64,000 nt of DNA from Agromyces sp. 3263 (GTDB taxonomy: Bacteria > Actinomycetota > Actinomycetes > Actinomycetales > Microbacteriaceae): assembly GCF_031456545.1 (NCBI RefSeq), contig NZ_JAVDUV010000001.1, forward strand, positions 496,001 to 560,000, read 5' to 3'. The position numbers and the translations under genes were made by a program. How positions within the stretch are numbered: the stretch's first letter is position 1; each line of letters opens with the position of its first letter. Below the pieces are notes generated by a model. The model saw only the letters and a list, made by a program, of their open reading frames with translations. It searched no databases and had not been told where the DNA came from. This document shows, in pieces, positions 5,966 through 61,326 of the stretch.

Positions 5966-6132
5966 CGTTCCTCCGCCACACGGACACCCCCATGCCGTTG
6001 CGTTTCGAGCCGGTTACATGTGGGTGTCGATCTGCGCAACTCCCCGCCTCCAGCGCGACCCGCCGTTATATCGTGACGGCAGAGGATCAGCGTGGTTCCC
6101 GTCCGGAAACCTCGAACCTGGAGCCGCCGCGC

Positions 6133-7206: not shown

Positions 7207-7217
7207 GACGGGTCGGC

Positions 7218-41882: not shown

Positions 41883-42973
41883 ACGTCCTCCGCGATCGTG
41901 TCGGGATGAGCCGGATCGAACAGCTCATTGGTCCAGAATGCCGTGAGAAGGTCATCCGTGCCGGTATTGGTGATCCGGTGGGCCCACATCGTCGGCATGT
42001 CGACCGCATGCGGCGCGTCGCCGCTGACCTCGAACTCGAGGATCTGGTCGGTGAAGAGCCGCCGCATGGCGATCGTCGCCGTTCCGGAGATGACGATGAA
42101 CCGCTCGACCTTGCGGCGATGGAAGTGCTGCCCGCGCGTGATCCCAGGATGCGTCGTCGAGACGGAGGTCTGGCTTTCGCCGCCGTGAGCTCGCACGAGC
42201 TCGGCGAACGAGCCGCGCTCGTCGGCGTGGGCCTTCATGGTGAACGACAGTCCCGTGGGGAGGGTGTAGGAGCGGTAGGAGTTGAACAGGTCGCGGTCGA
42301 ACGTCGACGCGAGCTCGGGGATCTCGCCGTTGCGGTACACCTCGGCGATGCGGGTGAGGTCCGCGAGGAGTTCGCTGACCGTGCGCTCCCTGACGCGTTC
42401 GGCGACGAGATCGGCGGACACCGCACCGGTGAGCACGTCCGCGGCATCCTGCGCGTGCAGCAGCGCGAGTGGCCGGTCGACGTCCACCGCGGGCTCCCGA
42501 CCCTCCGCGATCAAGGTGGCGAACGTGGCGAACACCGAGTTGTAGAACGGTCGTCCATGCTCGCCGAACAGGTTGGGCAGAACGACGTCGCCGAATCGGA
42601 TGCCGCGGCGAGCGCACGCCCGCTCGATGATGCCGGCGCTGCGTTTCTTCGCCTCCCCGTACGCCGACAGGGTGGGACCGAGGCTCTGGGTCGAATTCGC
42701 GAAGACGACGACCGGCGGCGGCTCCTCGGCGGCGAGGAGCGCCTCGGCGAACTGCTCCGCGAGCCGGACGTTCCCGTCGGAGACTTCGGCCTCGTTGCCG
42801 CGGTTCACGCCGGCCAGGTGGATGGCTCGCTGTGCCCCGCTCATGGCGTTCGTGGTGCGCTCGAGATCGAACCGCTCCCCGAGCGCGATCGCCGAAGACC
42901 GCCCGCCACCCGCGTGGACGGCCACCCGGGTATGCCAGCCCAGGAACCCGCCTGCGCCGGTGACCGCGAACAT
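41879..42973 (-). CDS. capF: CapF-like reductase with C-terminal cupin
   Basis: A 364-residue bifunctional protein. The N-terminal SDR domain starts AVTGAGGFLGWHTR and contains HLAGVNRGNEAEVSDGN and YGEAKKRSAGII with the Tyr-x-x-x-Lys pair near 130. The C-terminal third is a cupin: HPGITRGQHFHRRKVERFIV near 275-295. This arrangement is specific to CapF/FnlB enzymes, which epimerise at C3 and reduce C4 of the CapE product with NADPH to give UDP-2-acetamido-2,6-dideoxy-L-talose. It shares one base with the CapE stop codon and four with CapG. Confidence 0.92.
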   Translation of the reverse strand: MFAVTGAGGFLGWHTRVAVHAGGGRSSAIALGERFDLERTTNAMSGAQRAIHLAGVNRGNEAEVSDGNVRLAEQFAEALLAAEEPPPVVVFANSTQSLGPTLSAYGEAKKRSAGIIERACARRGIRFGDVVLPNLFGEHGRPFYNSVFATFATLIAEGREPAVDVDRPLALLHAQDAADVLTGAVSADLVAERVRERTVSELLADLTRIAEVYRNGEIPELASTFDRDLFNSYRSYTLPTGLSFTMKAHADERGSFAELVRAHGGESQTSVSTTHPGITRGQHFHRRKVERFIVISGTATIAMRRLFTDQILEFEVSGDAPHAVDMPTMWAHRITNTGTDDLLTAFWTNELFDPAHPDTIAEDV

Positions 42974-44019
42974 CAGCGTGTTTCGTCCTCGAGCCGGCCC
43001 GCGGCCTGCAGTTCGGTTCGCACCTCGGGGATCGTGAGGAGCAACTGCTCGATCTCCTCGACGCTCATTCGCGTCACCGTGTGGGAGTCGTAGTCCGCGA
43101 ACTCCTGTTGGCGCACGTTGCCCTCGTCGAAGTAGAGGCTGTAGTTCAGGTCCCGCCCATCGGCCGCGATGCGGAAGTACTCGCCCATGTCGATCGCCCG
43201 CGCGAGCTCCTCACGGCTGGCGAGCGCCTCTGAGACCTTCTCCGCGTGCCGGGTGCCGATGACCTCGACGTCGGGGCGCCGCCCGAAGAGGTTGCAGACG
43301 GCCTCGGCGAGGTCCCGGATGGTGCACGCCGGGGCCTTGCGAATGAAGAGGTCGCCCTGCTTGCCGTTGGTGAAGGCGAACTCCACGAGCCCGACCGAAT
43401 CGTCGAGCGACATCATGAACCGCGTCATGTCGGGGTTCGTCACCGTCAGGGGCTTGCCCGCCTTCAGCTGGGCGATGAACAGCGGGATCACCGAGCCTCG
43501 CGAGTACATGACGTTGCCGTAGCGCACGCACGAGACGGTCGTGTTCGCTGTCGGATTGTTGAGCCCGTGCGAGTGGGCGACCTTCTCCATCATCGCCTTC
43601 GACATGCCCATCGCATTGACGGGATACACCGCCTTGTCGGTGCTCAGGCAGACGAGCGACCCGACCCCGTTGTACTCGGACGCGCGAACGACGTTCTCGC
43701 TGCCGATGACATTCGTGCGAACCGCCTCCATCGGGAAGAACTCGCACGACGGCACCTGTTTCAGCGCGGCGGCGTGGAAGACGTAGTCGACGTCCTTGGT
43801 GGCACGCTCGACGCTCTGGTAGTCGCGCACGTCGCCGACGTAGAACCGGAGCCGATCGTCTGCCAGTTCGTACCGCATGAGGTCCTGCTTCGCCTCATCG
43901 CGGCTGAGGATGCGAACCTCTGCCACCCCGAGGCCGAGCATGCGCTCCGCCACGGTATGGCCGAACGAACCGGTTCCCCCCGTCACCAGCACCCGTCGAG
44001 TTTCGTAGATTCCGTTCAA
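42973..44019 (-). CDS. capE: UDP-GlcNAc 4,6-dehydratase/5-epimerase (CapE type)
   Basis: A 348-residue SDR enzyme that starts UDP-N-acetyl-L-fucosamine synthesis from UDP-GlcNAc. It has VLVTGGTGSFGHTVAERML at 10-28, HAAALKQVPSCEFFPMEAV near 85, LSTDKAVYPVNAMGMSKAMM with the Met-x-x-x-Lys catalytic segment near 125-145, and RYGNVMYSRGSVIPLF. Length and motifs match CapE/FnlA of Staphylococcus capsules and E. coli O26. The likely start is TTG at 44019 with GGGGA seven bases upstream. It heads the minus-strand operon capE-capF-capG-DUF4012. Confidence 0.93.
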   Translation of the reverse strand: MNGIYETRRVLVTGGTGSFGHTVAERMLGLGVAEVRILSRDEAKQDLMRYELADDRLRFYVGDVRDYQSVERATKDVDYVFHAAALKQVPSCEFFPMEAVRTNVIGSENVVRASEYNGVGSLVCLSTDKAVYPVNAMGMSKAMMEKVAHSHGLNNPTANTTVSCVRYGNVMYSRGSVIPLFIAQLKAGKPLTVTNPDMTRFMMSLDDSVGLVEFAFTNGKQGDLFIRKAPACTIRDLAEAVCNLFGRRPDVEVIGTRHAEKVSEALASREELARAIDMGEYFRIAADGRDLNYSLYFDEGNVRQQEFADYDSHTVTRMSVEEIEQLLLTIPEVRTELQAAGRLEDETR

Positions 44020-44289
44020 GCCCGTTTCCCCGCTTCACTGGCCAGTCGGACGCTCTCACGCCTCGATCCGAACCTAGCATCGGCAGGAACGGGGGTGCGT
44101 GAGGCAGTCACTGCGGATTCAGATGGCCAAGTCCCTGATCGTGGGCCACTGCGAAAGCATGACACTCCGAAGTCGCTCGCCCACCGATAGCGGCGCCACC
44201 TGCCCTAGTAGAGTCGGCTTCGGGCGCATCAGAGGCCGGGGGGCTTTCGCGGCGGCGCCGATGAGTAGGGCAACGGAGCGGGGGCCGGG
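44020..44289. other. 270-base divergent intergenic region
   Basis: The largest gap in the window, between capE (minus) and the UDP-GlcNAc dehydrogenase gene (plus). It must hold promoters for both operons. TAGTAG at 44206-44211 (plus) and a TAGGTT on the minus strand near 44076 are possible -10 boxes, without clear -35 partners. I see no small gene. The lower-GC part of locus B begins here. Confidence 0.5.
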
Positions 44290-45558
44290 TTGCGCAACGA
44301 GAATCTGATCGCCATCGTGGGTCAGGGATACGTGGGCCTGCCAGTCGCGATGCGCGCGGTGGAGGTCGGGTACTCGGTGGTCGGTATCGATCTTGACGAG
44401 CGTCGTGTCGATCACCTTCGGCGCGGCGCATCGTATGTCGATGACGTGCCCAACGACGTACTGCGGCGGACACTTGAGACGGGACGATACCTTCCGACGA
44501 CCGACTATGACGACGCGACCGGATTCGACGTCGCGGTCATCACCGTCCCGACACCCCTCCGCGAGAACCTCCCCGACCTGACCTTCATCGAATCTGCGGC
44601 GCAATCATTGGCGAAGCGGATGAAGCGTGGGGCAACGGTCATCCTCGAGTCGACGACGTATCCGGGTACAACGGAAGAGCTCCTCACGCCGGCTCTCGAG
44701 GATGCGACCGGCTACGTCGCCGGTCTGGACTTCCATGTGGGATACAGTCCTGAACGCATCGACCCTGGAAATCCGACTTGGGGGTTCGTCAACACGCCGA
44801 AGGTCATCTCCGGAATCAATCCGGCATCGCTCGAGCGAGTAGCTGCGTTCTACGACTCGTTGGTTGATCGAACGGTCGCCGTGGGCACCCCGAAAGAAGC
44901 CGAGCTGACCAAGTTGCTCGAGAACACCTTCCGGCACGTGAACATCGCCCTCGTCAACGAGCTTGCGATCTATGCCCACCAGCTCGGCGTCGACATCTGG
45001 GAGTCCATCGAGGCGGCGTCGACGAAGCCGTTCGGCTACATGAAGTTCACGCCCGGGCCCGGGGTTGGTGGGCACTGCCTCCCGGTGGATCCGAGCTACC
45101 TCTCGTGGGAGGTACAGCGCAAGCTCGGTCAGAACTTCCGATTCGTCGAACTGGCGAACGATGTGAACCGTCGCATGCCGCACCATGTGGTGCAACGAAC
45201 GATCGAAATGCTGAATGACCGGTCGCTGGCGGTGAGAGGCTCTCGCGTACTGATCCTGGGTATCGCATATAAGCGGAACACGGGCGACATCCGGGAGGCT
45301 CCTGCCCTCCGGGTGATCGAGTTGCTCCAGTCACTGGGTGCAGATGTCGTCGCCGTCGACAGTCACGTCGAGCCGCATCGATGGCCGAAGGGTGTCGAAC
45401 GACAGGAGCTCGATGGAGCACTTCAGGGCGGCGTCGACGCCATCATCTTGGTGACTGATCACGATGATCTGGATCTCACGTTGCTCAGCGACACGGACGG
45501 CATACCGATTCTCGACACGAAGAATCGTCTCGACCGCCGGGTCGCGAGTCCTCTCTGA
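44290..45558 (+). CDS. UDP-N-acetylglucosamine 6-dehydrogenase (WbpA/TviB type)
   Basis: A 422-residue nucleotide-sugar dehydrogenase. AIVGQGYVGLPVAMRAVEVG at residues 8-27, then PTPLRENLPDLTFIE, ESTTYPGTTEELL, YSPERIDPGN, the active loop GVGGHCLPVDPSYL with Cys263, and LGIAYKRNTGDIREAPAL. The YSPERIDPGN and GGHCLPVDP forms mark the UDP-N-acetylhexosamine group (WbpA, TviB, WbpO) rather than UDP-glucose dehydrogenase. The product would be UDP-GlcNAcA or UDP-GalNAcA. It starts with TTG and is followed 14 bases later by an epimerase gene, the same pairing as tviB-tviC of the Vi capsule. It is the first gene of the lower-GC core. Confidence 0.9.
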   Translation: MRNENLIAIVGQGYVGLPVAMRAVEVGYSVVGIDLDERRVDHLRRGASYVDDVPNDVLRRTLETGRYLPTTDYDDATGFDVAVITVPTPLRENLPDLTFIESAAQSLAKRMKRGATVILESTTYPGTTEELLTPALEDATGYVAGLDFHVGYSPERIDPGNPTWGFVNTPKVISGINPASLERVAAFYDSLVDRTVAVGTPKEAELTKLLENTFRHVNIALVNELAIYAHQLGVDIWESIEAASTKPFGYMKFTPGPGVGGHCLPVDPSYLSWEVQRKLGQNFRFVELANDVNRRMPHHVVQRTIEMLNDRSLAVRGSRVLILGIAYKRNTGDIREAPALRVIELLQSLGADVVAVDSHVEPHRWPKGVERQELDGALQGGVDAIILVTDHDDLDLTLLSDTDGIPILDTKNRLDRRVASPL

Positions 45559-45572
45559 ATCGGAAGGCGACC

Positions 45573-46508
45573 ATGCGGGTACTCATCACCGGTGGGGCTG
45601 GGTTCATCGGCGCAAACCTGAGCCGGCGCCTCCTCGACGCCGGTGACATCGAGGTACTCGCTTTCGACAACCTCGCGACCGGTTTGCGCTCCAATCTCGA
45701 CCCGTCGGTGCGATTCATCGAAGGAGACCTTCGCGATCCAGACTCGCTGATCAGGGCCACATCCGGGGTGGATGCGATCGTCCATCTCGGAGCGCTCCCA
45801 TCGGTTCCGCGATCGCTCAACGATCCCCGCACGACGAATGACGTGAATGTGATCGGAACCCTCAATCTGCTCGAGGCTGCCCGGCACAACGATGTCCCTC
45901 ACTTGATCGCCGCATCGTCCTCGTCGGTGTATGGCAGCAACCCCGCCATCCCGAAGGTCGAATCACTCGCGACCGTTCCGGTCAGCCCGTACGCAGTGAG
46001 CAAGCTTGCGACTGAGGCCTACACCAACGCCTATCAAACGAGCTTCGGTCTCAGCGCGATCGCCTTCCGGTTCTTCAATGTATTCGGCCCGCTCCAACGG
46101 GCCGACCACGCCTACGCGGCGGTCATCCCGCGATTCCTCGCTGCCACTCTCAGCGGAAAGCCGCTCACTGTGTACGGCGATGGCACACAGTCCCGCGACT
46201 TCACGTCCATACACGCGGTGACCGACGTTCTCGAGAAGACGCTGAGACGCCGCGTCACCTCCCCCACCCCGGTGAACCTCGCGTTCGGTGCGCGCACGAG
46301 CTTGAACGAGGTGATCGATATCATCCGGTCGATTCACACTGGCCCCATTCAAGTGGAGTACACGGATTGGCGCACCGGTGACGTACCGCACTCGCAGGCA
46401 TCCGCCGAACGGCTCCTCGAACTTGTACCTGATGCTCGCCGACCCCAGCTTGCAGCCGCAATCGAGGAAGCGTACGAGTGGTATGCCGCATCGGCCGAAG
46501 TGCGGTGA
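45573..46508 (+). CDS. UDP-sugar C4-epimerase (WbpP/TviC/GalE family)
   Basis: A 311-residue extended SDR. It has VLITGGAGFIGANLSRRLLD at 3-22, HLGALPSVPRSLNDPRTTND, a SSSSVYG segment, and SPYAVSKLATEAY with Tyr-x-x-x-Lys near 140-144. GDGTQSRDFTSIHAVTDVL is the usual C-terminal substrate motif. The SVPRS segment matches WbpP/TviC-type epimerases acting on N-acetylated UDP-hexosamines or their uronic acids. With the dehydrogenase next door it should give UDP-GalNAcA. The start codon follows the dehydrogenase stop by 14 bases. Confidence 0.88.
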   Translation: MRVLITGGAGFIGANLSRRLLDAGDIEVLAFDNLATGLRSNLDPSVRFIEGDLRDPDSLIRATSGVDAIVHLGALPSVPRSLNDPRTTNDVNVIGTLNLLEAARHNDVPHLIAASSSSVYGSNPAIPKVESLATVPVSPYAVSKLATEAYTNAYQTSFGLSAIAFRFFNVFGPLQRADHAYAAVIPRFLAATLSGKPLTVYGDGTQSRDFTSIHAVTDVLEKTLRRRVTSPTPVNLAFGARTSLNEVIDIIRSIHTGPIQVEYTDWRTGDVPHSQASAERLLELVPDARRPQLAAAIEEAYEWYAASAEVR

Positions 46509-46527
46509 ATCCCGATTGAACTCGCCA

Positions 46528-50272: not shown

Positions 50273-51378
50273 GATTGTTCTCCTGACGAGAGAACGCTTC
50301 CATATGCGAGGGCGAGTCGATCTACCATGTGATCCAGCGTGTAGTGTTCAGCAATTGCCACCTTCGCTTCCGCACCGAGCTTCCGGCGAAGATCTGGGTC
50401 GCCCAACACCCTGAGCGCCTCGGCGAGCTCCGCGGGAGCATGTGGGGCGACGAGAACTCCGCCCCCATGTGCGAGCACCTCGACGTTGCCGCCCACGCGG
50501 GTCGCAACCGCTGGCAGCCCCGCGTTCATGGCCTCGAGAAGGGCATACGACAGATTCTCGTGAAGGCTGCCGAGGACGAAGACATCGGCAGCGGCCAGCA
50601 GGCGATCCACGTCATCGCGCCGGCCGAGGAGTATGACCTTCGTCTCGTGTTCCGACCGCAGCCACTGTTCGATCACCCAACGATCAGGCCCATCGCCCAC
50701 GAAGACGAGGATGGTCGGCTGGGCAAAGCGAGCGAGTTCGACCGACGCGAGGATGTCTTCGATCCCCTTGTCAAGCGTCAGACGCCCGACGGCGACGACC
50801 AGCATCGTGTCATCCGAAACACCGAGTTCGCATCGAACTTCAGATCGCGCGGCTGGATCGATTCGCGTCGGGGGTACGCCGTTAGCGGTCACCCCCACAA
50901 ACTTCCGAGCGTACGGTCGGAGCACCGGCTTCGAGATTGCTGCCTCGCACACGGTCGATATGTGCGAGGCGAGTTGCAGCGTCAGCCGCTCCAACACAAC
51001 TTCGACGAAACGCCGCCTCAGGGTCCGCCGGCCATGCACGAGATCGCTGACGGATCCGTGCACGGAGACGAGCACCCGCGACACTCCGGCGAGGCGGGCA
51101 GCGACCACGCCATGGAAGCCCTCGTTCCCCAAGCCGCGCACGTGGGCCATGTCGGGCTTCGCTCGGCGCATCTGTCCGGCCATCCGCAGAATGAGCGAGA
51201 GGTTGATCCCGCCGGCTGGACGATCTTGCACGACGCTGATTAGTTCGAATTGGTCGCCGAGGCTCGAGTTCATGAGGTGCGAGTGACCGGTGATGGGTCC
51301 TCCGGTTCCAGGCGTTCCGAAGACATGCTGAACTATGCGTGGTTTGCGCGCAACGGCCCGCCGACGCATTCGCCTCAT
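50269..51378 (-). CDS. Glycosyltransferase family 4
   Basis: A 369-residue GT4 enzyme. VQHVFGTPGTGGPITGHSHL near 16-35 is the N-terminal glycine loop, and AHVRGLGNEGFHGVVAARLAG and SVHGSVSDLVHG follow. The donor half has VVAVGRLTLDKGIEDILASV near 190, LLGRRDDVDRLLAAADVFVLGS and LSYALLEAMNAGLPAVAT with the E-x7-E-type segment. The ATG overlaps the Wzy stop codon upstream by ATGA. The N-terminal run MRRMRRRAVARKPR is strongly basic and may aid membrane association. Confidence 0.9.
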   Translation of the reverse strand: MRRMRRRAVARKPRIVQHVFGTPGTGGPITGHSHLMNSSLGDQFELISVVQDRPAGGINLSLILRMAGQMRRAKPDMAHVRGLGNEGFHGVVAARLAGVSRVLVSVHGSVSDLVHGRRTLRRRFVEVVLERLTLQLASHISTVCEAAISKPVLRPYARKFVGVTANGVPPTRIDPAARSEVRCELGVSDDTMLVVAVGRLTLDKGIEDILASVELARFAQPTILVFVGDGPDRWVIEQWLRSEHETKVILLGRRDDVDRLLAAADVFVLGSLHENLSYALLEAMNAGLPAVATRVGGNVEVLAHGGGVLVAPHAPAELAEALRVLGDPDLRRKLGAEAKVAIAEHYTLDHMVDRLALAYGSVLSSGEQS

Positions 51379-52793
51379 GTGATGTCACCGCGAACGGGTA
51401 GGAGACGGTAGCCGCGTGCGTCGAGTGTGGGTCGAACAAAGGCACGAACCAAATAGATCGCGATCAGTGTCACGAAACCGATGGCTGTGTAACGCGACAG
51501 CATCAGCTGATTGTTGGCGGGAATGTAGATGGCGGCGATCATCAGTTGGCAGAAGAGGATGAGGCTCAGTGCGTCACGCTCTCGTCTCACCCCCATCCAA
51601 CACCTAGCCAAGAACCAGCCAAAGATCGCCATGAATACGACCGCGCCCGGGAACGTGACATCAGACGCGATCCAAGGAAAGAAGGTCGACCATACTTGCC
51701 CAGCTGGCCACCCCGTTCGTTCCTCTGTGCGGGCCGGATACGACAACTCCATTGGATCATCGCCGCCAAAGTACTGGACTTTGTAACTTGCAAGGGCGGG
51801 GACGCTGGCGCCGCCGGAAAACTCGAAGGGCGTCTCGAGACTCTTCGAAAGTCCGATGTAGCCGTTTACGGGATAGTAGAGGGTCACTGCTAGGCCAAGT
51901 GCGAACCTCTCTCCGAACATCTGCGAAATCACCGGGTCGGGCGAAAACTGACCTGCTGCGCCGAGTCCTTCAAGCCTGTCTGCCTGGATATTCGACATGA
52001 GCACTACAAAACTCACGCCGAGTAGCGCCAACACGGCCCAATATCTCCGGCGCCTGTGTTGCGCTTGACGCCCGGGCGGAGACATACGCGAGGAGGGTGC
52101 AAACGAAGGGGTGATAGACCTGCTTGAGAGTCGTTGGGGGTCGAAAGACGCCGCGAGGGCCGCCAGCAGTGCAATCAGTACATCGCCAAATCCCTTGAGT
52201 GTGCCGATGTACAAGAAGTACATCAAGTACGCAATGACGCTCAGCACGGCGAGTGCGCGCAGGAACAATCCGAGTGACCGCCAGAACCATACAGTCATCG
52301 GAATGAGCACGGCATACAGCGCTCCCGCGAGGACGGTCAACTGGATGGCAAGATTCACTCGACCCGTACGTTCCTGATCCGCATAGACCGCGAACTTGTG
52401 GAAGTAACTATCGCCCGGGTTCAGCGCAGCTTCGACGATCGAACCCAGGGATGTAGCGCCGTATTCCGCAAGGGAGGCCGCCGAAAAGGTCAAATACCAG
52501 ACGCAAGCCAGAAATACTAGCCACTTCTGGGCCGACGATGCCTCTCGCGACGCTGGCGCTCGATAGCTGCGCTTCTGTTTGATGGACAACCTGTAGCCAG
52601 CGCCGAATGCGAGACAGGCAGAAGCTATGAACAGTACCTCGAGCGCAAGATTCTCTGCTTGTACGGAATACGGGCCGATCAGGAAGAGGACAAACGTACC
52701 AATCACGAAAACGAGGACTACCTTCAGTGGGAAATAGGGGTGCTCCGTGGGCCGGTTCGGTGTTGATCCCCTTGCGGAGACAGGGCTAAGCAT
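51375..52793 (-). CDS. Wzy-like O-antigen polymerase of locus B
   Basis: A 472-residue membrane protein with about 11 hydrophobic segments. A large loop (about 290-380) holds YYPVNGYIGLSKSLETPFEF and YKVQYFGGDDPMELSYPART. Size, topology and position among glycosyltransferases and a flippase indicate the polymerase that links repeat units outside the membrane. Wzy proteins share little sequence, so the call rests mainly on topology and context. The ATG at 52793 lies near the first helix; 50 further upstream codons to GTG 52943 are arginine-rich and look non-coding. The gene is notably AT-rich for this genome (53-57% G+C in sampled lines). Confidence 0.75.
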   Translation of the reverse strand: MLSPVSARGSTPNRPTEHPYFPLKVVLVFVIGTFVLFLIGPYSVQAENLALEVLFIASACLAFGAGYRLSIKQKRSYRAPASREASSAQKWLVFLACVWYLTFSAASLAEYGATSLGSIVEAALNPGDSYFHKFAVYADQERTGRVNLAIQLTVLAGALYAVLIPMTVWFWRSLGLFLRALAVLSVIAYLMYFLYIGTLKGFGDVLIALLAALAASFDPQRLSSRSITPSFAPSSRMSPPGRQAQHRRRRYWAVLALLGVSFVVLMSNIQADRLEGLGAAGQFSPDPVISQMFGERFALGLAVTLYYPVNGYIGLSKSLETPFEFSGGASVPALASYKVQYFGGDDPMELSYPARTEERTGWPAGQVWSTFFPWIASDVTFPGAVVFMAIFGWFLARCWMGVRRERDALSLILFCQLMIAAIYIPANNQLMLSRYTAIGFVTLIAIYLVRAFVRPTLDARGYRLLPVRGDIT

Positions 52794-52955
52794 CTCGGTT
52801 GGCCCAGCTCTTGATCCTTCGGCTGATTCGCGGAGAAGACGTCGTTCCGCCCTGCCTGACGGCCACATCGCCCGAACAGGCGCCCTGCAGCGGTGTGACC
52901 GAGAGATTCGGTTGCCGCCAGACACGAGGGCGCCGGGCTCCACTGTGCGGGTCGG

Positions 52956-54227
52956 TCAATTTGATCCTCCAATGCGGACGCGGTTCGTGGCCGTTCCAGA
53001 AAGTGAACGGATGATCTCGCCTGCGGTTGACGCAGCGGAAAGATGTGCCTCGTAATACGCACGACCGAGCGCACCGTGGCGCTGCCATAGACGAGTGCCA
53101 CCTTGAGCCATTCGAACGATCGCCTCACACAAACCGCTCGCGTCCCCCGGTGTCACGACAACGCCCGCCTCCGCTTCACGAATGAGCCGAGCCCCATCAC
53201 CCGCGAGGTGTCCGATTATCGGAACGCCGGACGCGAGCAACGTCGCGATCTTGCTAGGGGTCGTGTAATGCAGGAACGGAGTGTCGGCGAGGCTGACGAG
53301 TTGAATGTGAGATCGGGCGATGCATTCAGGGATATCGCGTTGCGGCACTCGTCCGAGGAATCGAACGTTCCAGAGTCGTTCTGCAGCTGCCTGCCGCTCG
53401 AGCCGTTCACGGCTAATTCCATCTCCGACGAGGAGGATCCGTATCTGCGAGTGCTTCTTGAGAAGTGCTGCCGCTTCCAACAGGGTGTCGAGGCCCTGCA
53501 CCTCGCCGATCGCGCCCGCGTACATGACGTCGACGAATTCAGGACTTTCATCCGAGAGTTGAAGTTCTCGGCGGAGGTCTGCCGCTGGCCTGAACAGTGA
53601 CTCATCGGTTGGATTGGGAGCGTAGACGATCTTGGCTGGATCGAGCGCAGGGTGACGCGACAGGATGATGTCGCGCAAACTCCGGGAACTGACCCCGACG
53701 ATCGTGGCCTTGCGCTCGGTGAAGCGGACGATTCGATTCGCGACGGCCGCTGCCAGATCGCCCAACCATCCAGCCGGAATCATGCCGCTGTCTATGAGCG
53801 AATCTGGCCAGAGGTCCTGGACATGCAGGAAATATGGCGTTCTGCCGTTCCGCGTATGGCTGAGCAAGGGAAGCCCGACCGTGACAGGCGAGTTGTAGAC
53901 CCAGACCGCATCGACGTCTCGGAGAGCCGAGCGACCCGATGCAGTCGCGGACAGCGCAAACGTCGAATAGTTGGCGACACGACCGAGAACAGACGCGCCG
54001 TGATTCGGGATCAGGGCGACTCGCGTCACATCGATGGCGCCGTGTTGTTCTCTCGTGCGGCGCCGCACCCGGTACCCGTCGTAGAGCCGACCGTCGGGGT
54101 AGTTGGGAAACCCGGTAAGGACGCTCACACTGTGCCCTTGGGTGATGAACTCACGGGCGTATACCCCTGGCAATGAGGCAGGTCCGGGTTCGGGATCGAA
54201 CCACTGGGCGAGGATGCCGATTCTCAT
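52956..54227 (-). CDS. Glycosyltransferase family 4, WbuB-like (possible L-FucNAc transferase)
   Basis: A 423-residue GT-B enzyme. RIGILAQWFDPEPGPASLPG at 2-21, TGFPNYPDGRLYDGYR near 38 and FLHVQDLWPDSLIDSGMI near 133 are the hallmarks of the WbuB/WcaI-type group. VMYAGAIGEVQGLDTLLEA near 233 and YTTPSKIATLLASGVPIIG follow. In E. coli O26 the WbuB gene accompanies fnlA-fnlB-fnlC and is thought to transfer L-FucNAc to the first sugar, so the capEFG genes nearby make that role plausible here. It overlaps the fused transferase gene by ATGA and would act on its product as the second step. Confidence 0.9.
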   Translation of the reverse strand: MRIGILAQWFDPEPGPASLPGVYAREFITQGHSVSVLTGFPNYPDGRLYDGYRVRRRTREQHGAIDVTRVALIPNHGASVLGRVANYSTFALSATASGRSALRDVDAVWVYNSPVTVGLPLLSHTRNGRTPYFLHVQDLWPDSLIDSGMIPAGWLGDLAAAVANRIVRFTERKATIVGVSSRSLRDIILSRHPALDPAKIVYAPNPTDESLFRPAADLRRELQLSDESPEFVDVMYAGAIGEVQGLDTLLEAAALLKKHSQIRILLVGDGISRERLERQAAAERLWNVRFLGRVPQRDIPECIARSHIQLVSLADTPFLHYTTPSKIATLLASGVPIIGHLAGDGARLIREAEAGVVVTPGDASGLCEAIVRMAQGGTRLWQRHGALGRAYYEAHLSAASTAGEIIRSLSGTATNRVRIGGSN

Positions 54228-56227
54228 GTTCGCACGCCTCCTCGAGCGAGGATGGTTTCAATGTGCTGCCGCGGGACGGCTGGGAATGTCGAGTCGAACG
54301 CGGAGGCCTGTCCCTGACCCATCCACATCATTTCGAGCCGGCGGGTCATTCCCGCAATTTCTGGTACCACACGGCCGAGCTGACGTGCGCAGAAGAGAGA
54401 CGCACGGCACAACCAGCGCGGCAAGTGGAGGGGTTCGGTCCCGCTGGCGGCTCGCAGCACATCCCCGGCCGACAGGCCTTCCCACGGTTGGAGCATGACC
54501 GGACCGAGCGATTCGTTGCTGGTAGAGACCCGGATCACGAAATCGACAAGTCCATCGATGCTGCTCACGACGGTGGGCTGAGACCCATCCCCAGCGACGC
54601 TTGCCATGGGTGAACGTGAAATTGTCCTGAGAGTCTCCGTCGTGGACCGACCATGGCCTTGAACACTCGTTGCGCGTATGACGATCGCGTCAGAGTTTTT
54701 CGTTGCCCGGCCGGCTGCCAAGAACGCGCGCTCGCCCAGCGCCTTGGACCGCGAGTACGGCGAGAAGGGCAATACCTCCATGGTCTCGTCTAGAACGGCG
54801 CGGTTGCCCTGCACCGCGGCGGAACTGATGTGAATCGTGCGCTCGACTCCCGCACGGTCGGCGGCGTGCAGCACGATCGCGGGTACCAACGCGTTGGCGC
54901 CATAGAGCTCGTATGTGTGCGGAGCATCAGGCGTGGCGAGGCCAGCGGCATTGACGACGACGTCGGTTGCTTGAAAGGAGGTGACGAGCGCGGCCATCCC
55001 GGGATAGTTCACGGCGACGTCCGATATCTCCTCAGCTCGGTCCAGCCTGGGCGCCATCCGCACGCGTGGGCCCGGTATACGGCGAACGTCGAATCCGCGA
55101 GCCTCGAGCTGGGTGGCAAGCGCATCGCCGACAAAGCCGGAGGCGCCGACGATGGCCCACCGGGTCGGTCGGAATCGAGGCCGCATCAATGGCGACGCGG
55201 GAGGGTCAAGCGAACCTAAAGCCATGTGCGGTCGAGGCTCCGGGCTGTGACCACGGAAGCGCGGCAGCAGAAGGAACGCGGCGCAGAGACCGCCGATGAG
55301 AATGAGCCCTGTCCACGCAGGGACCAGTGCCAAGAGGACGAGGCCACCCGCGATGCTTGTCGCGATGCTGAAGAGCGTCACGATCGCTGACACTTGGAGG
55401 TGGCTCAGTCCAGTCTCTGTCAATCGCTGATATACGTGCATGCGATGCGACCGCAGCACCGGCTCACCGTTCCGGAGGCGCCGGAACAGGGTGAACGACG
55501 TGTCGGCGAGGTACACAGCGAGGGGAGCTATGACTGCCACCGGTTCAGCGCCGTAGAAGATCGCCGCAACGCCGACGGAAGCGATCGACGCGCCAAGCAG
55601 ATAACTGCCGACATCTCCGAGGAAGAGGCCCGGTCTTGTCAGGTTCCATGGCAGAAAAGCAGCGAAGACAGCTGATATCACTAGCCCAAGGAAAGTGAGC
55701 CACGGCATCGCAGTCAGGACTCCGATGAACGAATAGGAGATCCCGACGACTGCACCGTGCAGGCCAGAAATGCCGTTCACGCCATCCATGAAGTTGGCCA
55801 CATTGACGTACGACATGATGGCGACCGCGAAGAACAGCACCGCCCCCCACGACTGCCCCGTCAGGGCACCGAGCGGCACCGCAACGACGAGACCGACGAC
55901 AAGTTGCCCCATCGCGCGAACAAGCACCGACAACCCGCGGACGTCTTCCGCGAGCCCGACCAGACTTGCGAGAAACACACCGACAGCGATCACGGCGACC
56001 AGGGCTACCGCGATGTCGGATGGACGTGCAATGACCATTGCGGAAGCCGCAAGATATCCGAGCAGCGGTGCGATTCCACCGCCACGCAGCGTTGGCTGTG
56101 AATGTGAGGATCGCAGACTCGGGTGATCGACCACAGCGTGTCTCTTCAGGATTGTTCCGAGGAAGAGCGGTGACGCCAAGCTGACCAATCCCGCTACAGC
56201 GATCGTCCACCAAACGAACGTGCTCAC
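54224..56227 (-). CDS. Fusion: WecA/WbpL-type phosphoglycosyltransferase + SDR 4-reductase
   Basis: A 667-residue two-domain protein. Residues 1-320 are a polytopic polyprenyl-phosphate N-acetylhexosamine-1-phosphate transferase, with DHPSLRSSHSQPTLRGGG near 34-51, NVANFMDGVNG at 142-152, FLGDVGS at 202-208 and HRMHVY at 261-266. After a proline-rich linker (about 325-350) comes an SDR domain: WAIVGASGFVGDAL near 357-370, HISSAAVQGN, and YSRSK with Tyr491 and Lys495. The SDR resembles WbpV/WreQ-type 4-reductases that make QuiNAc or FucNAc. The reading frame is continuous through the junction. GTG 56227 has AAGGG five bases upstream. The dehydratase gene upstream would supply the 4-keto substrate. 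Confidence 0.88.
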   Translation of the reverse strand: MSTFVWWTIAVAGLVSLASPLFLGTILKRHAVVDHPSLRSSHSQPTLRGGGIAPLLGYLAASAMVIARPSDIAVALVAVIAVGVFLASLVGLAEDVRGLSVLVRAMGQLVVGLVVAVPLGALTGQSWGAVLFFAVAIMSYVNVANFMDGVNGISGLHGAVVGISYSFIGVLTAMPWLTFLGLVISAVFAAFLPWNLTRPGLFLGDVGSYLLGASIASVGVAAIFYGAEPVAVIAPLAVYLADTSFTLFRRLRNGEPVLRSHRMHVYQRLTETGLSHLQVSAIVTLFSIATSIAGGLVLLALVPAWTGLILIGGLCAAFLLLPRFRGHSPEPRPHMALGSLDPPASPLMRPRFRPTRWAIVGASGFVGDALATQLEARGFDVRRIPGPRVRMAPRLDRAEEISDVAVNYPGMAALVTSFQATDVVVNAAGLATPDAPHTYELYGANALVPAIVLHAADRAGVERTIHISSAAVQGNRAVLDETMEVLPFSPYSRSKALGERAFLAAGRATKNSDAIVIRATSVQGHGRSTTETLRTISRSPMASVAGDGSQPTVVSSIDGLVDFVIRVSTSNESLGPVMLQPWEGLSAGDVLRAASGTEPLHLPRWLCRASLFCARQLGRVVPEIAGMTRRLEMMWMGQGQASAFDSTFPAVPRQHIETILARGGVRT

Positions 56228-56327: not shown

Positions 56328-58190
56328 TCACGACGTCCCTTTCGCCACAACGGTCGGCCGAAGAATCGCGATCATCGCGGTGTCGTTGTCGCGCACCTTC
56401 CTCGACATCTGGAGGTCCCACTCCGCCTTGTCGAGCGCCGACGGCGGCACCGGGGCGACCCGGGCATGCGAGATCTTCGGATGCCGCGGTCGCGTCGTCT
56501 GCTCGGACGCGCCGACGAGCTCTTCGTGCAGCTTCTCCCCTTCACGCAGGCCCGTGAAGACGATGTCCACGTCGCGACCCGACATCTCGATCATCCGCTC
56601 GGCGACGTCGAGGATCCGGACGGGCTCCCCCATGTCGAGGATCAGGACCTCACCGGGCGACCCGATGCCTCCGGCCTGGACCACGAGCTGGCAGGCCTCG
56701 GGAATCGTCATGAAATAGCGCGTGGCATCCGGATGCGTCACGGTCACCGGGCCGCCCGACCGGATCAGTGCCGCGAAGGTGGGGAGCATGGATCCCCGGC
56801 TGCCGATCACGTTGCCGAACCGCACCGAGAGGAATGCGGCATCCGTCTCGATCGCCATCCACGCCGTGAGCTTCTCGGCGACGCGCTTCGAATGACCGAG
56901 CACGCTGGTCGGGTTCGCCGCCTTGTCGGTCGAGATGTTGACGAAGGTCCGCACGCCGCAGTCGCGCGCCGCCTCGAGCACGTTGAGGGTGCCGATCACG
57001 TTCGTCTTCCACGCCTCGTCGGGATACTGCTCGAGCATCGGCAGGTGCTTGAGCGCCGCCGCGTGGAACACCACCTCAGGGCGACGATCGAGGAACACGT
57101 GCCGCAGGGCGTCGGCATCGCGGATGTCGGCGAGCACGACGTCGGGCGTGTCGAGCAGGCCGTGACCGGCGGTCGCGAGCTGCGCGGCCTGGAGGCCGGT
57201 CTCGTCGCGATCGAGCATGATGAGCTCGGCCGGACCGAACCCCACGATCTGGCGGCACAGCTCCGCGCCGATGGACCCGCCGGCGCCCGTCACCAGCACC
57301 CGCCTGCCCGCCAGGTATCCGGCGATGGTGGCGACCTCGGTATCGACCGCGTGCCGGCCGATGAGGTCCTCGATCGAGACATCCCGCATGTCGGTGAGTC
57401 CGGTGCGGCCGGCGAGGATCTCGTCGAGCCGGGGCAGCACCTTCACCTGGAGCCCGAGACGCGTGCCGGCGTCGTTCACGCGACGCAGCAGCGCCGAGTC
57501 CGCTCGCGCGATGGCCACCACGACGACCTTCGCCCCGGTCTCTCGCGCGACGACGTCGAGGTCGGCGAGCGTCCCCCGCACCTGCACGGAGCCGTGCCGC
57601 ACGTTGCGGAACGCCGGATCGTCGTCGAGCAGGCCGACCGGCACGAAGCCGGAGTCGGGGTCGGTCATCATGCGGCGCACGAGTTCGGCGCCGAGGTAGC
57701 CGGCACCGTAGATGATGGTGCGCTCGGCGTCGGCGCCGGGGCGGTACTTGTGCTCGACGTAGAGCCGCTTGAGGTATCGCGCGCCGAACATGATGAGGAG
57801 CGCGATCGGCAGCGCGATCACCACCGTGCTGCGAGGCACGCCCAACGCGGTGCCGAACAGCCCGACCGGCACGGCGAGCACCACGGCCACGACGAGGACG
57901 GCCATGCCGAGGGCACGAACCTCCTCGAATGTGCCGTAGGTGTATCGGCCCTGGTAGAGGGTGAAACTCCATCCGACCGCGAGTTGCAGCGCCGCAGCCA
58001 GGGCGGCGAGCACCAGCATCGGCCCCACCGCGATGGCCGACACGTTGTACTCGTACCGCAGCGCCTCCGCGACGACCACTGCCAAGACCCACGCGAACGC
58101 ATCGATCGCGTACTGGGCCCCGAACCGCACCGGCAGATTCCGACTCGTGCGCTCGACGGCGGCCGCCCCCCGCTCGTCCGTCACTGCCAT
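56328..58190 (-). CDS. WbpM/PglF-type UDP-GlcNAc 4,6-dehydratase
   Basis: A 620-residue membrane protein with four N-terminal helices (about residues 25-130), a first Rossmann domain (IIYGAGYLGAELVRR near 163) and a C-terminal dehydratase domain. The latter has VLVTGAGGSIGAELCRQIV near 296, DIRDADALRHVF, HAAALKHLPMLEQYP, STDKAANPTSVLGHSKRVAE with the catalytic Lys near 440, and RFGNVIGSRGSMLPTF. This family converts UDP-GlcNAc to UDP-2-acetamido-2,6-dideoxy-4-keto-glucose, the shared precursor of QuiNAc, FucNAc and bacillosamine. The ATG at 58190 has GGGG six bases upstream. It precedes the fused transferase-reductase gene by 100 bases and is its likely metabolic partner. Confidence 0.93.
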   Translation of the reverse strand: MAVTDERGAAAVERTSRNLPVRFGAQYAIDAFAWVLAVVVAEALRYEYNVSAIAVGPMLVLAALAAALQLAVGWSFTLYQGRYTYGTFEEVRALGMAVLVVAVVLAVPVGLFGTALGVPRSTVVIALPIALLIMFGARYLKRLYVEHKYRPGADAERTIIYGAGYLGAELVRRMMTDPDSGFVPVGLLDDDPAFRNVRHGSVQVRGTLADLDVVARETGAKVVVVAIARADSALLRRVNDAGTRLGLQVKVLPRLDEILAGRTGLTDMRDVSIEDLIGRHAVDTEVATIAGYLAGRRVLVTGAGGSIGAELCRQIVGFGPAELIMLDRDETGLQAAQLATAGHGLLDTPDVVLADIRDADALRHVFLDRRPEVVFHAAALKHLPMLEQYPDEAWKTNVIGTLNVLEAARDCGVRTFVNISTDKAANPTSVLGHSKRVAEKLTAWMAIETDAAFLSVRFGNVIGSRGSMLPTFAALIRSGGPVTVTHPDATRYFMTIPEACQLVVQAGGIGSPGEVLILDMGEPVRILDVAERMIEMSGRDVDIVFTGLREGEKLHEELVGASEQTTRPRHPKISHARVAPVPPSALDKAEWDLQMSRKVRDNDTAMIAILRPTVVAKGTS

Positions 58191-59136
58191 GAGCCACCCC
58201 CGTCGCTCGTGCAAGCACTTCCCCCGCCCACAACCAAACCATGCCATCGCCCCCCTGCGCCAGCCCCACGCTGCCAGGCGTGACGTTCGCCCGGAGGCAC
58301 CCGCCCGGATCGCCGGCGACGAGGGAGCCATCGGCCAGTGCGACGTCCACGAGCTGGACGCCATCGCATCCGTTGACGTCGAGCACCGCGAGTCGATAGA
58401 CGCCAGCGCCACCGCCGAGGGCCGCGGTCCCGGGCACGTCGACCGGCGCCGACCAGGTGGACCCGACGTCGGCCGTCACGTGCACGGAGCCGCTCTCGCA
58501 CAGCACTGCGGCCGAGCCGTCGTCGAGTGGAGCGACCTGCACGACGCTGGGGCACGGTGCGGGCCGATCCCCGGCCGGGCTGTGGACCACCGACCGGTCA
58601 GCCGGATCGACGAACCACGACGTCCCGAGCTCGCCCGGAGCCGCCTCCCACTCCGCGCCGCCGACGAACGACCACGCGTACGACGGCGCGCAGCCCTGCG
58701 GCGACAGACCGATCAGCGAGATGAACGCATCGTCGCCGGCGGTGATGTGCTGCACGGCAGCGACGTCACCGGCGGGGAACGATTGCCACGTCGCACCGCC
58801 GTCACCGGTGACCTCCACCGTCGACGGCTCGGGACACGACGATGCCGAAGCGCGAACGGCCGACGACGCATCGAGTGCGGCGATCGCACGGTCGGGCGTC
58901 AGCACGGGCGCGGTGGTCGGCGGTGCGGCCGTCGGCGTTGCGGATGGCGTCGCACGGGGCGTCGCCGTGGCGGGCGCCTCCGCACCCGGCGTCGACCCCG
59001 CACCGTCGACCGTTCGGTTCTGCATGACCGCGAGCGCGCTGAGCACGAGCACCACCGCGGCGAGGAGGCCCAGCCCGATCGCGGTCCGCACCCGTGCCCC
59101 GCCCCGCTGGCGGGCCGCTCCGCGTCGCGCTGCCAT
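58181..59136 (-). CDS. Membrane-anchored Asp-box protein with an apparent frameshift near its end
   Basis: The frame from ATG 59136 encodes a protein with one membrane helix (residues 18-38), an Ala/Thr/Pro-rich linker (about 50-78) and an extracytoplasmic region with sialidase-like Asp boxes (TGDGGATW, TADVGSTW). As given, the frame runs on past base 58200 into the dehydratase gene in a wrong frame. One added base in the C-run at 58221-58225 would switch it to the frame encoding ACTSDGGGSWQ, a third Asp box, ending in TGA at 58181-58183 that overlaps the dehydratase start. So the gene is either truly frameshifted or carries a homopolymer sequencing error. Function unknown; catalytic sialidase residues were not identified. 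Confidence 0.7.
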
Positions 59137-59147
59137 GGAGCCGATCC

Positions 59148-59759
59148 CTAGATCCGCCCGGCTGCGCGGTGGAGCAGGGCGGCGACGGCGTTCACGGCCG
59201 GCACGAGTTGCGCCGCCGACGTTTCGTACGCGGCGGCGCCCTGACGGAAGGGGTCGATCACGTCGGCGTCATCGGGAACGGCAAGTGGTTCGGCGATGCC
59301 CCGCTGTGCCCCCACCGCCGCGACCGCGGCACCCAGCACGACGTCGACGGCGTCGCGATCGCGGAGGCCGTCGGTCGCAGCCAGCGCCTGGTCGAGGTCG
59401 GCATCGGTGACGGATGCCGCGAGCGCGGCGAACTCGCGCAGGGTGAACGTCGACCGCGTGGCCGCAGGCACGAGTTCCACGATCGCACGCCGGTGCTCGC
59501 GGGCGAGCGCCAGCACCAGGTCGGCGTCGCGGACCGATGCCGCATCCAGCCGCCTGGCGACGTGGGCGGCGGCATCCGTCACCCCGAGTCGTTCGGCGAT
59601 CGCCCGCGCGTCGCGGTCCATCGGCTCGCCGACCCAGGCGATGGTGCCGGCGCTCCCCACCGAGACGTCCACCCCGTCGAGACCGATCCGCAGCAACTGC
59701 TCGGCCATCGGCGACCGGCAGATGTTGCCCGAGCAGACGAGGAGGATGCGAAAGGTCAT
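59148..59759 (-). CDS. Low-molecular-weight protein-tyrosine phosphatase (Wzb-like)
   Basis: A 203-residue LMW-PTP. The P-loop VCSGNICRSPMAE provides nucleophile Cys9 and Arg15. The late general-acid motif VIDPF gives Asp169. The protein is longer than the usual 140-150 residues; the middle (about 95-150) has an extra helical stretch. In polysaccharide clusters such enzymes dephosphorylate the BY-kinase, here the protein encoded directly upstream with a four-base overlap. Cycling of kinase phosphorylation is known to control polymer length and output. Confidence 0.92.
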   Translation of the reverse strand: MTFRILLVCSGNICRSPMAEQLLRIGLDGVDVSVGSAGTIAWVGEPMDRDARAIAERLGVTDAAAHVARRLDAASVRDADLVLALAREHRRAIVELVPAATRSTFTLREFAALAASVTDADLDQALAATDGLRDRDAVDVVLGAAVAAVGAQRGIAEPLAVPDDADVIDPFRQGAAAYETSAAQLVPAVNAVAALLHRAAGRI

Positions 59760-61180
59760 CCGCGGGAACGACCCGATCGATCGAGCGCGTCACCGACGTC
59801 GAACTCGTCGCCGTCGTGCGTGACGCCGTACGTGTACGCGCCGTAACTGTAACTGTCGGGCCCCTTGGTCGGCAGCATGGTCACGATGATGCCGAGCAGT
59901 CGGCTGCCGATGGACTCCAGCGCGCGCACCGCACCGGCGAGCTCCTGCTTCTTCGTCGAACCCGAAGCGGCCACCAGGATCGCGCCCCCGGCGAGCTTCG
60001 AGACGACCGCCGCATCCGTCACCAGCAGCAGCGGAGGCGAGTCGATGAGCACGTAGTCGAACTGCGACGTGAGCGTTTCGAGGAGGCGGGCCATCGCGCC
60101 GGACCCGAGCAGCTCGCTGGGGTTCGGGGGGATCCGACCTGCCGGCAGGACGTACAAGTGCCCGCGCCCCCACTTCTGCAGCACCTCGACGATCTCGGCG
60201 CGGCCGATGAGCACGTCGGTGAGCCCGACGCCGCCCTCGATGCCCAGGTACTCGGCGAGCTTCGGCATCCGCAGGTCGCCGTCGACGAGGGCGACCTTCG
60301 CACCGGTCTCCGCCAGTGAGATCGCGAGATTCGCCGTGGTCGTGGACTTTCCCTCACCCGGTCCTGCGCTCGAGATCACGAAGCTCCGCGGGCTGCCGTC
60401 GATGTTCACGAACTGCAGGTTCGTCCGGAGGCTGCGGAAGGACTCCGCACGTGGATTGCGAGGATCGGAGTGCACGATCAGCGGTCGCTTCTTCGCACCG
60501 GGGTCGAGCGCGATGCCCCCGAGCAGCGGCGTGTCGGTGACCTGGGCGATATCGTGCAGCGAGTGGATGCGCGTGTCCAGCACGGTGCGCAGCACCGCGA
60601 TGCCGATACCGATCGCGAGCCCGATCAGCGCGCCGAGGACGAGGTTGAGGAACACGTTCGGGCTGGACGCGACCGCCGGTACGGTCGCCGGCTGGATGGT
60701 CTCGATCTTCACGAGGCTGGGTGAGTCGCCCTCGGGCTTCTCGAGGTCGTTGACCACGACGTCGGCGAGGTTGGCTCCCGTGGCATTGGCGATCGCGGCC
60801 GCGCGCTCGGGATCGCTGTCGGTCACCGTGATGTCGATCAGCACCGTGTTCAGCGGTGAACTCGCGACGACCTGCGCCGCGAGCTCCGCCGTCGTGCTGT
60901 CGAGCTGGAGCTCCTCGATGACGCGGTCCAGCACGATCGCGCTGTCGACGACGTCGACGTAGCTCGTCACGGCCTGCCGGGCGAAGGTCGTGCCCTGCAC
61001 GAGGTCGCCGGTCACCGCGGCATCGCCTGATCGGACGGAGACGTAGAGCTCGGTGCTCGCCTGGTACTTCGGGGTCACGATCAGCGAATACGCTGCGGCG
61101 AGGCCGACTCCGGCGAGGAGGCAGACGACGATCAGGATCCAGTTCTTGTGCAGCACGCGTACGTAGTCGTGAAACTCCAC
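59756..61180 (-). CDS. Wzz/BY-kinase fusion (polysaccharide co-polymerase and tyrosine autokinase)
   Basis: A 474-residue protein. The Wzz domain spans the membrane near residues 13-33 and 175-198. The kinase domain has Walker A SAGPGEGKSTT with Lys278, Walker A' LVDGDLRMP with Asp300 and Asp302, and Walker B YVLIDSPPLLL with Asp380. A tyrosine cluster SYSYGAYTYG (Tyr444, 446, 449, 451) provides autophosphorylation sites. All elements are canonical, unlike the paralogue at 19277-20599. Two GTG starts are possible; 61180 has GAGGGGAA eight bases upstream, while 61186 is too close. It heads an operon with the phosphatase, so locus B has a full regulatory pair. Confidence 0.93.
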   Translation of the reverse strand: MEFHDYVRVLHKNWILIVVCLLAGVGLAAAYSLIVTPKYQASTELYVSVRSGDAAVTGDLVQGTTFARQAVTSYVDVVDSAIVLDRVIEELQLDSTTAELAAQVVASSPLNTVLIDITVTDSDPERAAAIANATGANLADVVVNDLEKPEGDSPSLVKIETIQPATVPAVASSPNVFLNLVLGALIGLAIGIGIAVLRTVLDTRIHSLHDIAQVTDTPLLGGIALDPGAKKRPLIVHSDPRNPRAESFRSLRTNLQFVNIDGSPRSFVISSAGPGEGKSTTTANLAISLAETGAKVALVDGDLRMPKLAEYLGIEGGVGLTDVLIGRAEIVEVLQKWGRGHLYVLPAGRIPPNPSELLGSGAMARLLETLTSQFDYVLIDSPPLLLVTDAAVVSKLAGGAILVAASGSTKKQELAGAVRALESIGSRLLGIIVTMLPTKGPDSYSYGAYTYGVTHDGDEFDVGDALDRSGRSRG

Positions 61181-61326
61181 GAGCACTTCCCCTCATCGGC
61201 GACGATGACCCCCGACTGCTCCGCCGCCACTCCGGCGCAGGCCCAGTCTGTGGTCAGTCTTCCACAACGGGGAAAGCGCCCTCGGCATTTGCACGGGCGG
61301 ATGGCGCGGTGCGCTCGAACCCCCGC

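Follow-up and report, generated by a model that had tools for sequence, protein, structure and literature searches.

In Rhizobium etli, WreV, WreU and WreQ are taken to act as a dehydratase, a phosphoglycosyl transferase (PGT) and a short-chain dehydrogenase/reductase (SDR), all separate proteins. The title of a 2017 study by Li and Noel places the completion of synthesis in R. etli after the linking of the 4-keto precursor to the lipid. The O11 structure of Pseudomonas aeruginosa has D-N-acetylfucosamine (D-FucNAc) as its first sugar and L-FucNAc as its second. The same order of sugars is given for the type 5 capsule (CP5) of Staphylococcus aureus in the accessible part of PMC6441080, where CapD, CapN, CapM and CapL, together with CapE, CapF and CapG, likewise provide a dehydratase, an NADPH-dependent reductase, a priming PGT and then an L-FucNAc transferase. 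Bifunctional PGTs have been described within the monotopic class, and polytopic PGTs are tabulated as 'PGT only' in the accessible part of PMC10942596. No description of a polytopic PGT fused to an SDR was found in the open-access papers searched, a library that leaves most subscription papers outside. Here we describe such a fusion in a stretch of 64,000 nucleotides from Agromyces sp. 3263 (contig NZ_JAVDUV010000001.1, positions 496,001 to 560,000), called the window below. The fusion gene lies at 54224..56227 on the minus strand and, according to its open reading frame (ORF), Pfam matches, a homologue search and an alignment, encodes a polytopic PGT and an extended SDR in one chain of 667 amino acids.

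The R. etli and S. aureus systems are likened to the fusion by description. Unlike the fusion, the CP5 proteins are separate, CapM has a single re-entrant membrane domain and CapN acts on the UDP-sugar in vitro (PMC6441080, accessible part). The P. aeruginosa O11 module WbjE-WbjF-WbpL-WbpM shares with the window a WbpM-type dehydratase, a polytopic PGT, an SDR, a glycosyltransferase (GT) and a putative UDP-L-FucNAc trio, and the PGTs are 29-30% identical. However, its SDR (5995-6951 in our locus L117) and PGT (6953-7972) are separate genes, as the earlier note on this DNA had said of Pseudomonas, and the SDR is of another clade. The annotated order in L117 is polysaccharide biosynthesis protein, epimerase, wecB, GT, SDR, PGT and dehydratase, which we read as the O11 set WbjB-C-D-E-F-WbpL-WbpM, with WbpM presumably in the last place. 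The record of L117 (NZ_CP042268.1 139779-152720) is called a plasmid, but its O-antigen locus adjoins uvrB, so it may be chromosomal DNA. In the accessible part of PMC5774825, homologues of WbjC, WbjD, WbjE, WbjF and WbpL are listed in that order for an island of Acinetobacter that was matched with P. aeruginosa O11.

The earlier note mentioned hybrids of an SDR with the other class of sugar transferase, and one that may be of this sort is annotated in Deinococcus ficus. A 'hybrid nucleoside-diphosphate sugar epimerase/sugar transferase' on a plasmid of this species (L119:3989-5557) represents a parallel fusion of reversed domain order, the SDR being N-terminal and of the WbpV/WbjF clade and the transferase taken as WbaP-like from its annotation. 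Next to it lie a GT4 gene, wecB and two more genes, an epimerase and a polysaccharide biosynthesis gene by annotation, that we take as FnlA- and CapF-like. In Micrococcus terreus (L053), Actinotalea ferrariae (L064) and G087, a related PGT and an SDR of the same clade as the fused one stand side by side but are encoded separately; L053 has an ATG just past the PGT stop codon.

The fusion gene starts with GTG at 56227 and runs down to 54224, giving 667 amino acids and a stop with no internal stop codon; the uninterrupted frame claimed earlier, for which no strand had been given, is thus real and lies on the minus strand. An alternative in-frame start further upstream would extend the protein to 708 amino acids, and the first frame of the opposite (plus) strand over 54224-56227 contains several stops. 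PF00953 matched residues 78-221 with 75.5 bits (cut-off 27), above the Pfam gathering threshold for a polytopic PGT, and PF01370 matched residues 358-564 with 80.8 bits (cut-off 20.9). A homologue search limited to 0.55-1.75 times the query length scored 7998 candidates and returned 451 proteins that reached E<=1e-20; the top 120 (119 foreign proteins and the window's own) were examined. All 120 matched both PF00953- and PF01370-type profiles, the pairing that the earlier note had proposed to search for. The foreign proteins were 519-698 amino acids long, and 110 of the 120 fell between 640 and 700.

Where these best 120 carried database names, they were mostly called 'NAD-dependent epimerase/dehydratase family protein', other names being 'nucleoside-diphosphate-sugar epimerase', 'dTDP-4-dehydrorhamnose reductase' and UDP-GlcNAc-1-P transferase. 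They came from Microbacterium, Tessaracoccus, Micropruina, Cryobacterium, Flaviflexus and others, and the fusion recurs across many actinobacteria. Its occurrence is sporadic: it was present in 5 of 299 sampled genomes of the window's family and 3 of 396 of its order, its own genome counted in both, and only in the window's own among 396 genomes sampled across the phylum. The ten other genomes of the same genus within the family and order samples all lacked it. In the SDR tree, a contig of 5.4 kb from a Spirochaetia metagenome-assembled genome (MAG), L041, fell together with the window and Microbacterium (92/83); it may be mis-binned.

The PGT domain (residues 1-324, 55256..56227, minus strand) has 11 predicted membrane helices and a predicted fold like that of MraY/DPAGT1, and the SDR domain (residues 356-667, 54227..55162, minus strand) folds like extended SDRs. 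D95 was kept in 119 rows of an alignment of 121, which contains the window's own protein twice; the other two rows have gaps there. D148, D205, H261 and H264 were kept in all 121; such Asp and His motifs are catalytic in the polytopic PGT superfamily. Asp-Asp is usual in the PF00953 superfamily at the positions of residues 94 and 95; of the 119 rows, 86 had Glu and 33 had Asp as residue 94. The extended SDR motif was intact, with G361, G364 and G367 of the GxxGxxG stretch (361-367), S468, Y491 and K495 in all 121 rows and P387-R388 invariant after strand 2; GASGFVGD and YSRSK, both reported earlier, begin at residues 361 and 491. As for the region between the domains, previously put at about 55090-55270, the frame runs through it without a stop, but the linker of the predicted structure is narrower (about residues 325-355, 55163..55255, minus strand). 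It has neither helix nor strand, and the predicted local distance difference test (pLDDT) blocks across residues 321-350 were 84, 66 and 81. MraY has an N-out topology, and with 11 helices the conserved PGT loops and the SDR are all predicted on one side of the membrane. The WecA equivalog TIGR02380, the best NCBIfam match of the PGT, was rejected at 51.3 bits against a cut-off of 326.05. The stand-alone category 'PGT only' does not fit the fusion, as the SDR is in the same chain, and membership among the bifunctional monotopic PGTs (Bi-PGT) was rejected because the transferase domain is polytopic by Pfam, helices and fold.

A WbpM-type UDP-GlcNAc 4,6-dehydratase gene with an N-terminal CoA_binding_3 part lies about 100 bp upstream of the fusion on the same minus strand (56328..58367, start uncertain, up to 58412; PF02719 346.6 bits, PF13727 30.8 bits). 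PF02719 exceeded 300 bits in two genes of the whole genome, this one and an FnlA-like gene, while nine others scored 20-50 bits. A scan of named genomes gave 338 stretches with relatives, of which the best 80, representing 78 distinct loci, were classed by profile search. Fourteen were fused (L039-L052), two were adjacent split pairs (L053, L064) and one had only the SDR. In 38 the PGT and an SDR of the same clade were divergent, on opposite strands a few kb apart. Four, classed by hand, had a WbpV-type SDR instead (L056, L061, L067, L086), and 19 had neither kind of SDR in reach, although one of these, L108, later showed a divergent WbpV-type SDR. A WbpM-type gene was found at most 400 bp upstream of the PGT and on the same strand in the window, all 14 fused loci, both adjacent split loci, all 38 divergent loci, all four WbpV-type loci and 18 of the 19 without SDR, the gap being 464 bp in the remaining one (L114). 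The dehydratase gene directly upstream in the window and the 14 fused loci agrees with the earlier proposal that the fusion uses the WbpM-type product. A WbuB-type GT followed within 1.2 kb in seven fused loci, the window and the four WbpV-type loci. In L069 (3334-12743), a locus without SDR, the WbpM-PGT pair is set among housekeeping genes: prfA-, prmC- and sua5-type genes and two GT2 genes (Pfam), then WbpM, the PGT and, judged by eye, an atpB-like gene that also follows the PGT in three further loci of this class (L105, L108 and L116); such a neighbourhood is the usual place of rfe/wecA in actinobacteria.

The four WbpV-type loci are ordered WbpM, PGT, free WbpV/WbjF-type SDR and WbuB-type GT, with an FnlA-like gene further downstream, so that the free SDR occupies the place of the fused one between PGT and GT. 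Compared with the SDR of the P. aeruginosa O11-type locus, the free SDRs show 43-44% identity in L056, L061 and L086 and 31% in L067. No separate WbpV-type SDR was found in the 14 fused loci (flanks up to 10 kb on each side, some shorter), where the best gene scored 71 bits; with the same model the four real SDRs, part of it by construction, scored 325-475 bits and that of L108, which is not in it, 381 bits. A place for the fused SDR within the WbpV/WbjF clade was rejected: 34 fused, split or divergent SDRs separated from ten WbpV/WbjF-type ones with supports of 97/93 and 98/96, the bootstrap not being fully settled. Between the two kinds, hhalign indicates remote homology, with a probability of 99.8 and 28% identity over 243 columns. 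Since they form separate clades, the argument for a 4-keto reductase is one of position and not of clade, and by this argument the fused SDR probably reduces the same sugar that the PGT loads.

The analysis establishes the architecture, the intact motifs, the helix parity of the model, the conservation throughout the family, the WbpM linkage and, in cousin loci, a free WbpV/WbjF-type SDR at the position of the fused one; both catalytic activities of the fusion, their substrate, order and stereochemistry are inferred. Leaving the order aside, we consider it probable that the fusion is a bifunctional polytopic PGT that both loads and reduces the WbpM-derived sugar. The fusion would start a surface polysaccharide, probably of the Wzx/Wzy type. 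The WbpM-type enzyme would make UDP-2-acetamido-2,6-dideoxy-4-keto-hexose, and the N-terminal membrane domain would move the sugar-1-phosphate to undecaprenyl phosphate at the cytosolic face. The C-terminal SDR, kept on that face by the eleventh helix, would reduce C4 to give undecaprenyl diphosphate (Und-PP)-linked D-N-acetylquinovosamine (D-QuiNAc) or D-FucNAc, and the downstream WbuB-type GT would then probably add L-FucNAc. The FnlA-, CapF- and WecB/CapG-like, dehydrogenase, Wzz/autokinase and phosphatase genes of the window make up much of the O11 and CP5 parts list, which speaks for D-FucNAc. Given the different clades of SDR and GT, D-QuiNAc is also plausible, and we rate the two products about equally. 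The interpretation in the earlier note is partly supported: a WbpL-like polytopic PGT with an SDR in one chain and a WbpM-type gene directly upstream have held, and the reductase role of the SDR, its action on the lipid-linked sugar and the C4 epimer formed stand as proposals.

If both activities are granted, we lean slightly towards loading before reduction. Were a finished UDP-sugar loaded, the PGT would be expected to match the type of reductase, and it does not. In the PGT tree (18 fused and 5 WbpV-type rows) the reductase label was scattered, its five changes being no improvement on shuffled labels, and a constraint that keeps the WbpV-type rows together was rejected by the approximately unbiased (AU) test (p 4.1e-7 for the 23 rows; 6.3e-4 for the 12 loci also having the GT). 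For the next GT, a single change separated the reductase types in all of 200 bootstrap trees (100%), a value as low being reached in 0 of 500 shuffles; this tree held 8 and 6 rows, the P. aeruginosa and Deinococcus references being among the 6. A control tree of FnlA showed five changes in 12 rows and did not track the reductase type. A PGT untied and a GT tied to the reductase type are what loading first predicts. L067 combines the two: its PGT falls among the fused PGTs (98, quick tree) beside L045 (98/97), bootstraps again not fully settled, and both its SDR and its GT belong to the other kind, which suggests that a fused SDR was lost and replaced. It is tenable, though in our view somewhat less likely than not, that the membrane domain passes the Und-PP-4-keto-sugar straight to its own SDR, with little or no nucleotide-linked QuiNAc or FucNAc, which would make this the first described bifunctional polytopic PGT. 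Beyond that, the C4 configuration of the first sugar may be set by reductases of two clades that can replace each other (the 'VQG' type when fused, the WbpV/WbjF type when free), the next GT being swapped along with them.

The reverse order, in which the SDR reduces the UDP-sugar before loading and the fusion merely raises the local concentration, lies within the bifunctional interpretation and seems to us the lesser but a serious possibility. In the accessible part of PMC6441080, purified CapN with NADPH turned the UDP-4-keto sugar into a product with the mass of UDP-D-FucNAc, and CapM used UDP-D-FucNAc to load undecaprenyl phosphate (C55P); Preq of Bacillus cereus, unrelated in sequence, also uses a UDP-sugar (PMC4514872, accessible part). 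Indirect evidence on the other side is that the reductase type is followed by the next GT and ignored by the PGT tree, and that the gene order WbpM-PGT-SDR-GT of the WbpV-type loci and of fused loci with the GT matches loading first.

Several observations weigh against the bifunctional interpretation or against loading first. The fused SDR is, by sequence, only a remote relative of the WbpV/WbjF types, in a separate clade; BLASTP matched it to the P. aeruginosa SDR with E 0.011 over 31 residues and to the Deinococcus hybrid with E 1e-6 at best. Neither half of the fusion falls in any named NCBIfam equivalog, and in half of the fused loci (seven of 14) a WbuB-type GT is missing within 1.2 kb. 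A fused-type SDR was absent from all 19 genomes of the loci without SDR, the same search finding it in all five known carriers, including one that was not part of the query alignment. A WbpV-type SDR scored strongly only in the genome of L108 (362.9 bits), at 101-123 bits in 15 genomes and not at all in three, so that 18 of the 19 genomes have a WbpM-PGT pair and no strong match to either kind of SDR. As to the order, CapN reduces the free UDP-sugar in vitro, and loading first is thus not the sole precedent (PMC6441080, accessible part). The branch dividing the GTs had a support of 50/99, and the P. aeruginosa and Deinococcus GTs fell outside any supported clade with the four actinobacterial WbpV-type GTs. 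WbpV-type loci are few, numbering four, or five where the PGT and SDR trees are concerned. As the SDR lies next to the GT, their joint variation could also come from joint transfer, and a PGT of broad specificity would give the same tree pattern.

Gnu catalyses the C4 epimerisation of Und-PP-N-acetylglucosamine (GlcNAc) in E. coli O157, and a WecA-like PGT of the fusion might likewise load GlcNAc while the SDR epimerises a lipid-linked or free N-acetylhexosamine (HexNAc) at C4. Many C4 epimerases appear among the fold matches of the SDR, and WecA is the best NCBIfam match of the PGT, though far under the cut-off (51.3 of 326 bits). We consider this quite unlikely, given that each of the 14 fused loci has a WbpM-type gene directly upstream, and given the position that the SDR shares with WbpV/WbjF types and two further PF00953 genes elsewhere in the genome, by which WecA- and MraY-type functions are probably covered. 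That sequencing or assembly joined two neighbouring genes, for which the adjacent split pairs L053, L064 and G087 might be cited, is already refuted by the 119 foreign proteins with both domains among the best 120 and by the occurrence of the fused form in isolates and MAGs of several families.

The fused rows were not monophyletic in either the PGT or the SDR tree, and the fusion may have arisen more than once. The split SDR of L053 was nested among fused SDRs (97/85, bootstrap likewise unsettled), so that fission is likely there.

A GT4 of the WcaI/WbuB kind (52956..54227, minus strand; PF13692, NF007640 of the WcaI family at 163 bits under a cut-off of 276, and the gene tree) overlaps the fusion stop by 4 bp and is predicted to add the second sugar. 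Next to it, a polytopic membrane protein at 51375..52943 (minus strand) had no Pfam or NCBIfam match and may be a Wzy polymerase, judging by position and by hydrophobicity assessed by eye. The UDP-L-FucNAc route would be served by an FnlA/WbjB/CapE-like dehydratase-epimerase (42973..44019, minus strand; TIGR04130 438 bits, under the cut-off of 730) and a CapF/WbjC/FnlB-like reductase (41879..42973, minus strand; NF047837 180 bits, under the cut-off of 500; PF14667 158 bits), beside a WecB/CapG/WbjD-like UDP-HexNAc 2-epimerase (40743..41882, minus strand; TIGR00236 231.9 bits, over the cut-off). On the plus strand are a nucleotide sugar dehydrogenase, probably for UDP-HexNAc (44290..45558; TIGR03026 393.8 bits, over the cut-off, the next-best UDP-ManNAc dehydrogenase models being under theirs), and a TviC-like C4 epimerase (45573..46508; NF011728 194 bits, under the cut-off). 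Beyond the WbpM-type gene follow a low-molecular-weight tyrosine phosphatase (59148..59759, minus strand; PF01451 78.9 bits) and a Wzz plus polysaccharide tyrosine autokinase (59756..61186, minus strand; TIGR01007 175.5 bits, over the cut-off; PF02706). At 44-56 kb the GC content is 60-64%, compared with about 70% on either side; this agrees with an exchangeable polysaccharide island and suggests that 44000-56000 was acquired. Two neighbouring DUF4012 ORFs lie beside the cluster on the minus strand (37010-38788 and 38938-41121, the start of the second uncertain). Two similar nucleotide-sugar dehydrogenase genes, their translations judged by eye, are opposed about 5 kb apart at 29162-30478 (plus strand) and 35639-36940 (minus strand).

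The proposed activities and pathway are of known kinds; the chain architecture and the separate reductase clade are new. Reduction of the 4-keto sugar before and after lipid loading each has a precedent, in separate systems. The order can be tested directly, as a single chain holds both active sites in domains that can be separated, split versions occur in nature and cousin loci have another reductase. If true, the bifunctional PGT would widen the picture in the accessible part of PMC10942596, where extra enzymes are confined to monotopic PGTs, and would provide a sequence marker for QuiNAc- or FucNAc-initiated glycans in actinobacteria.

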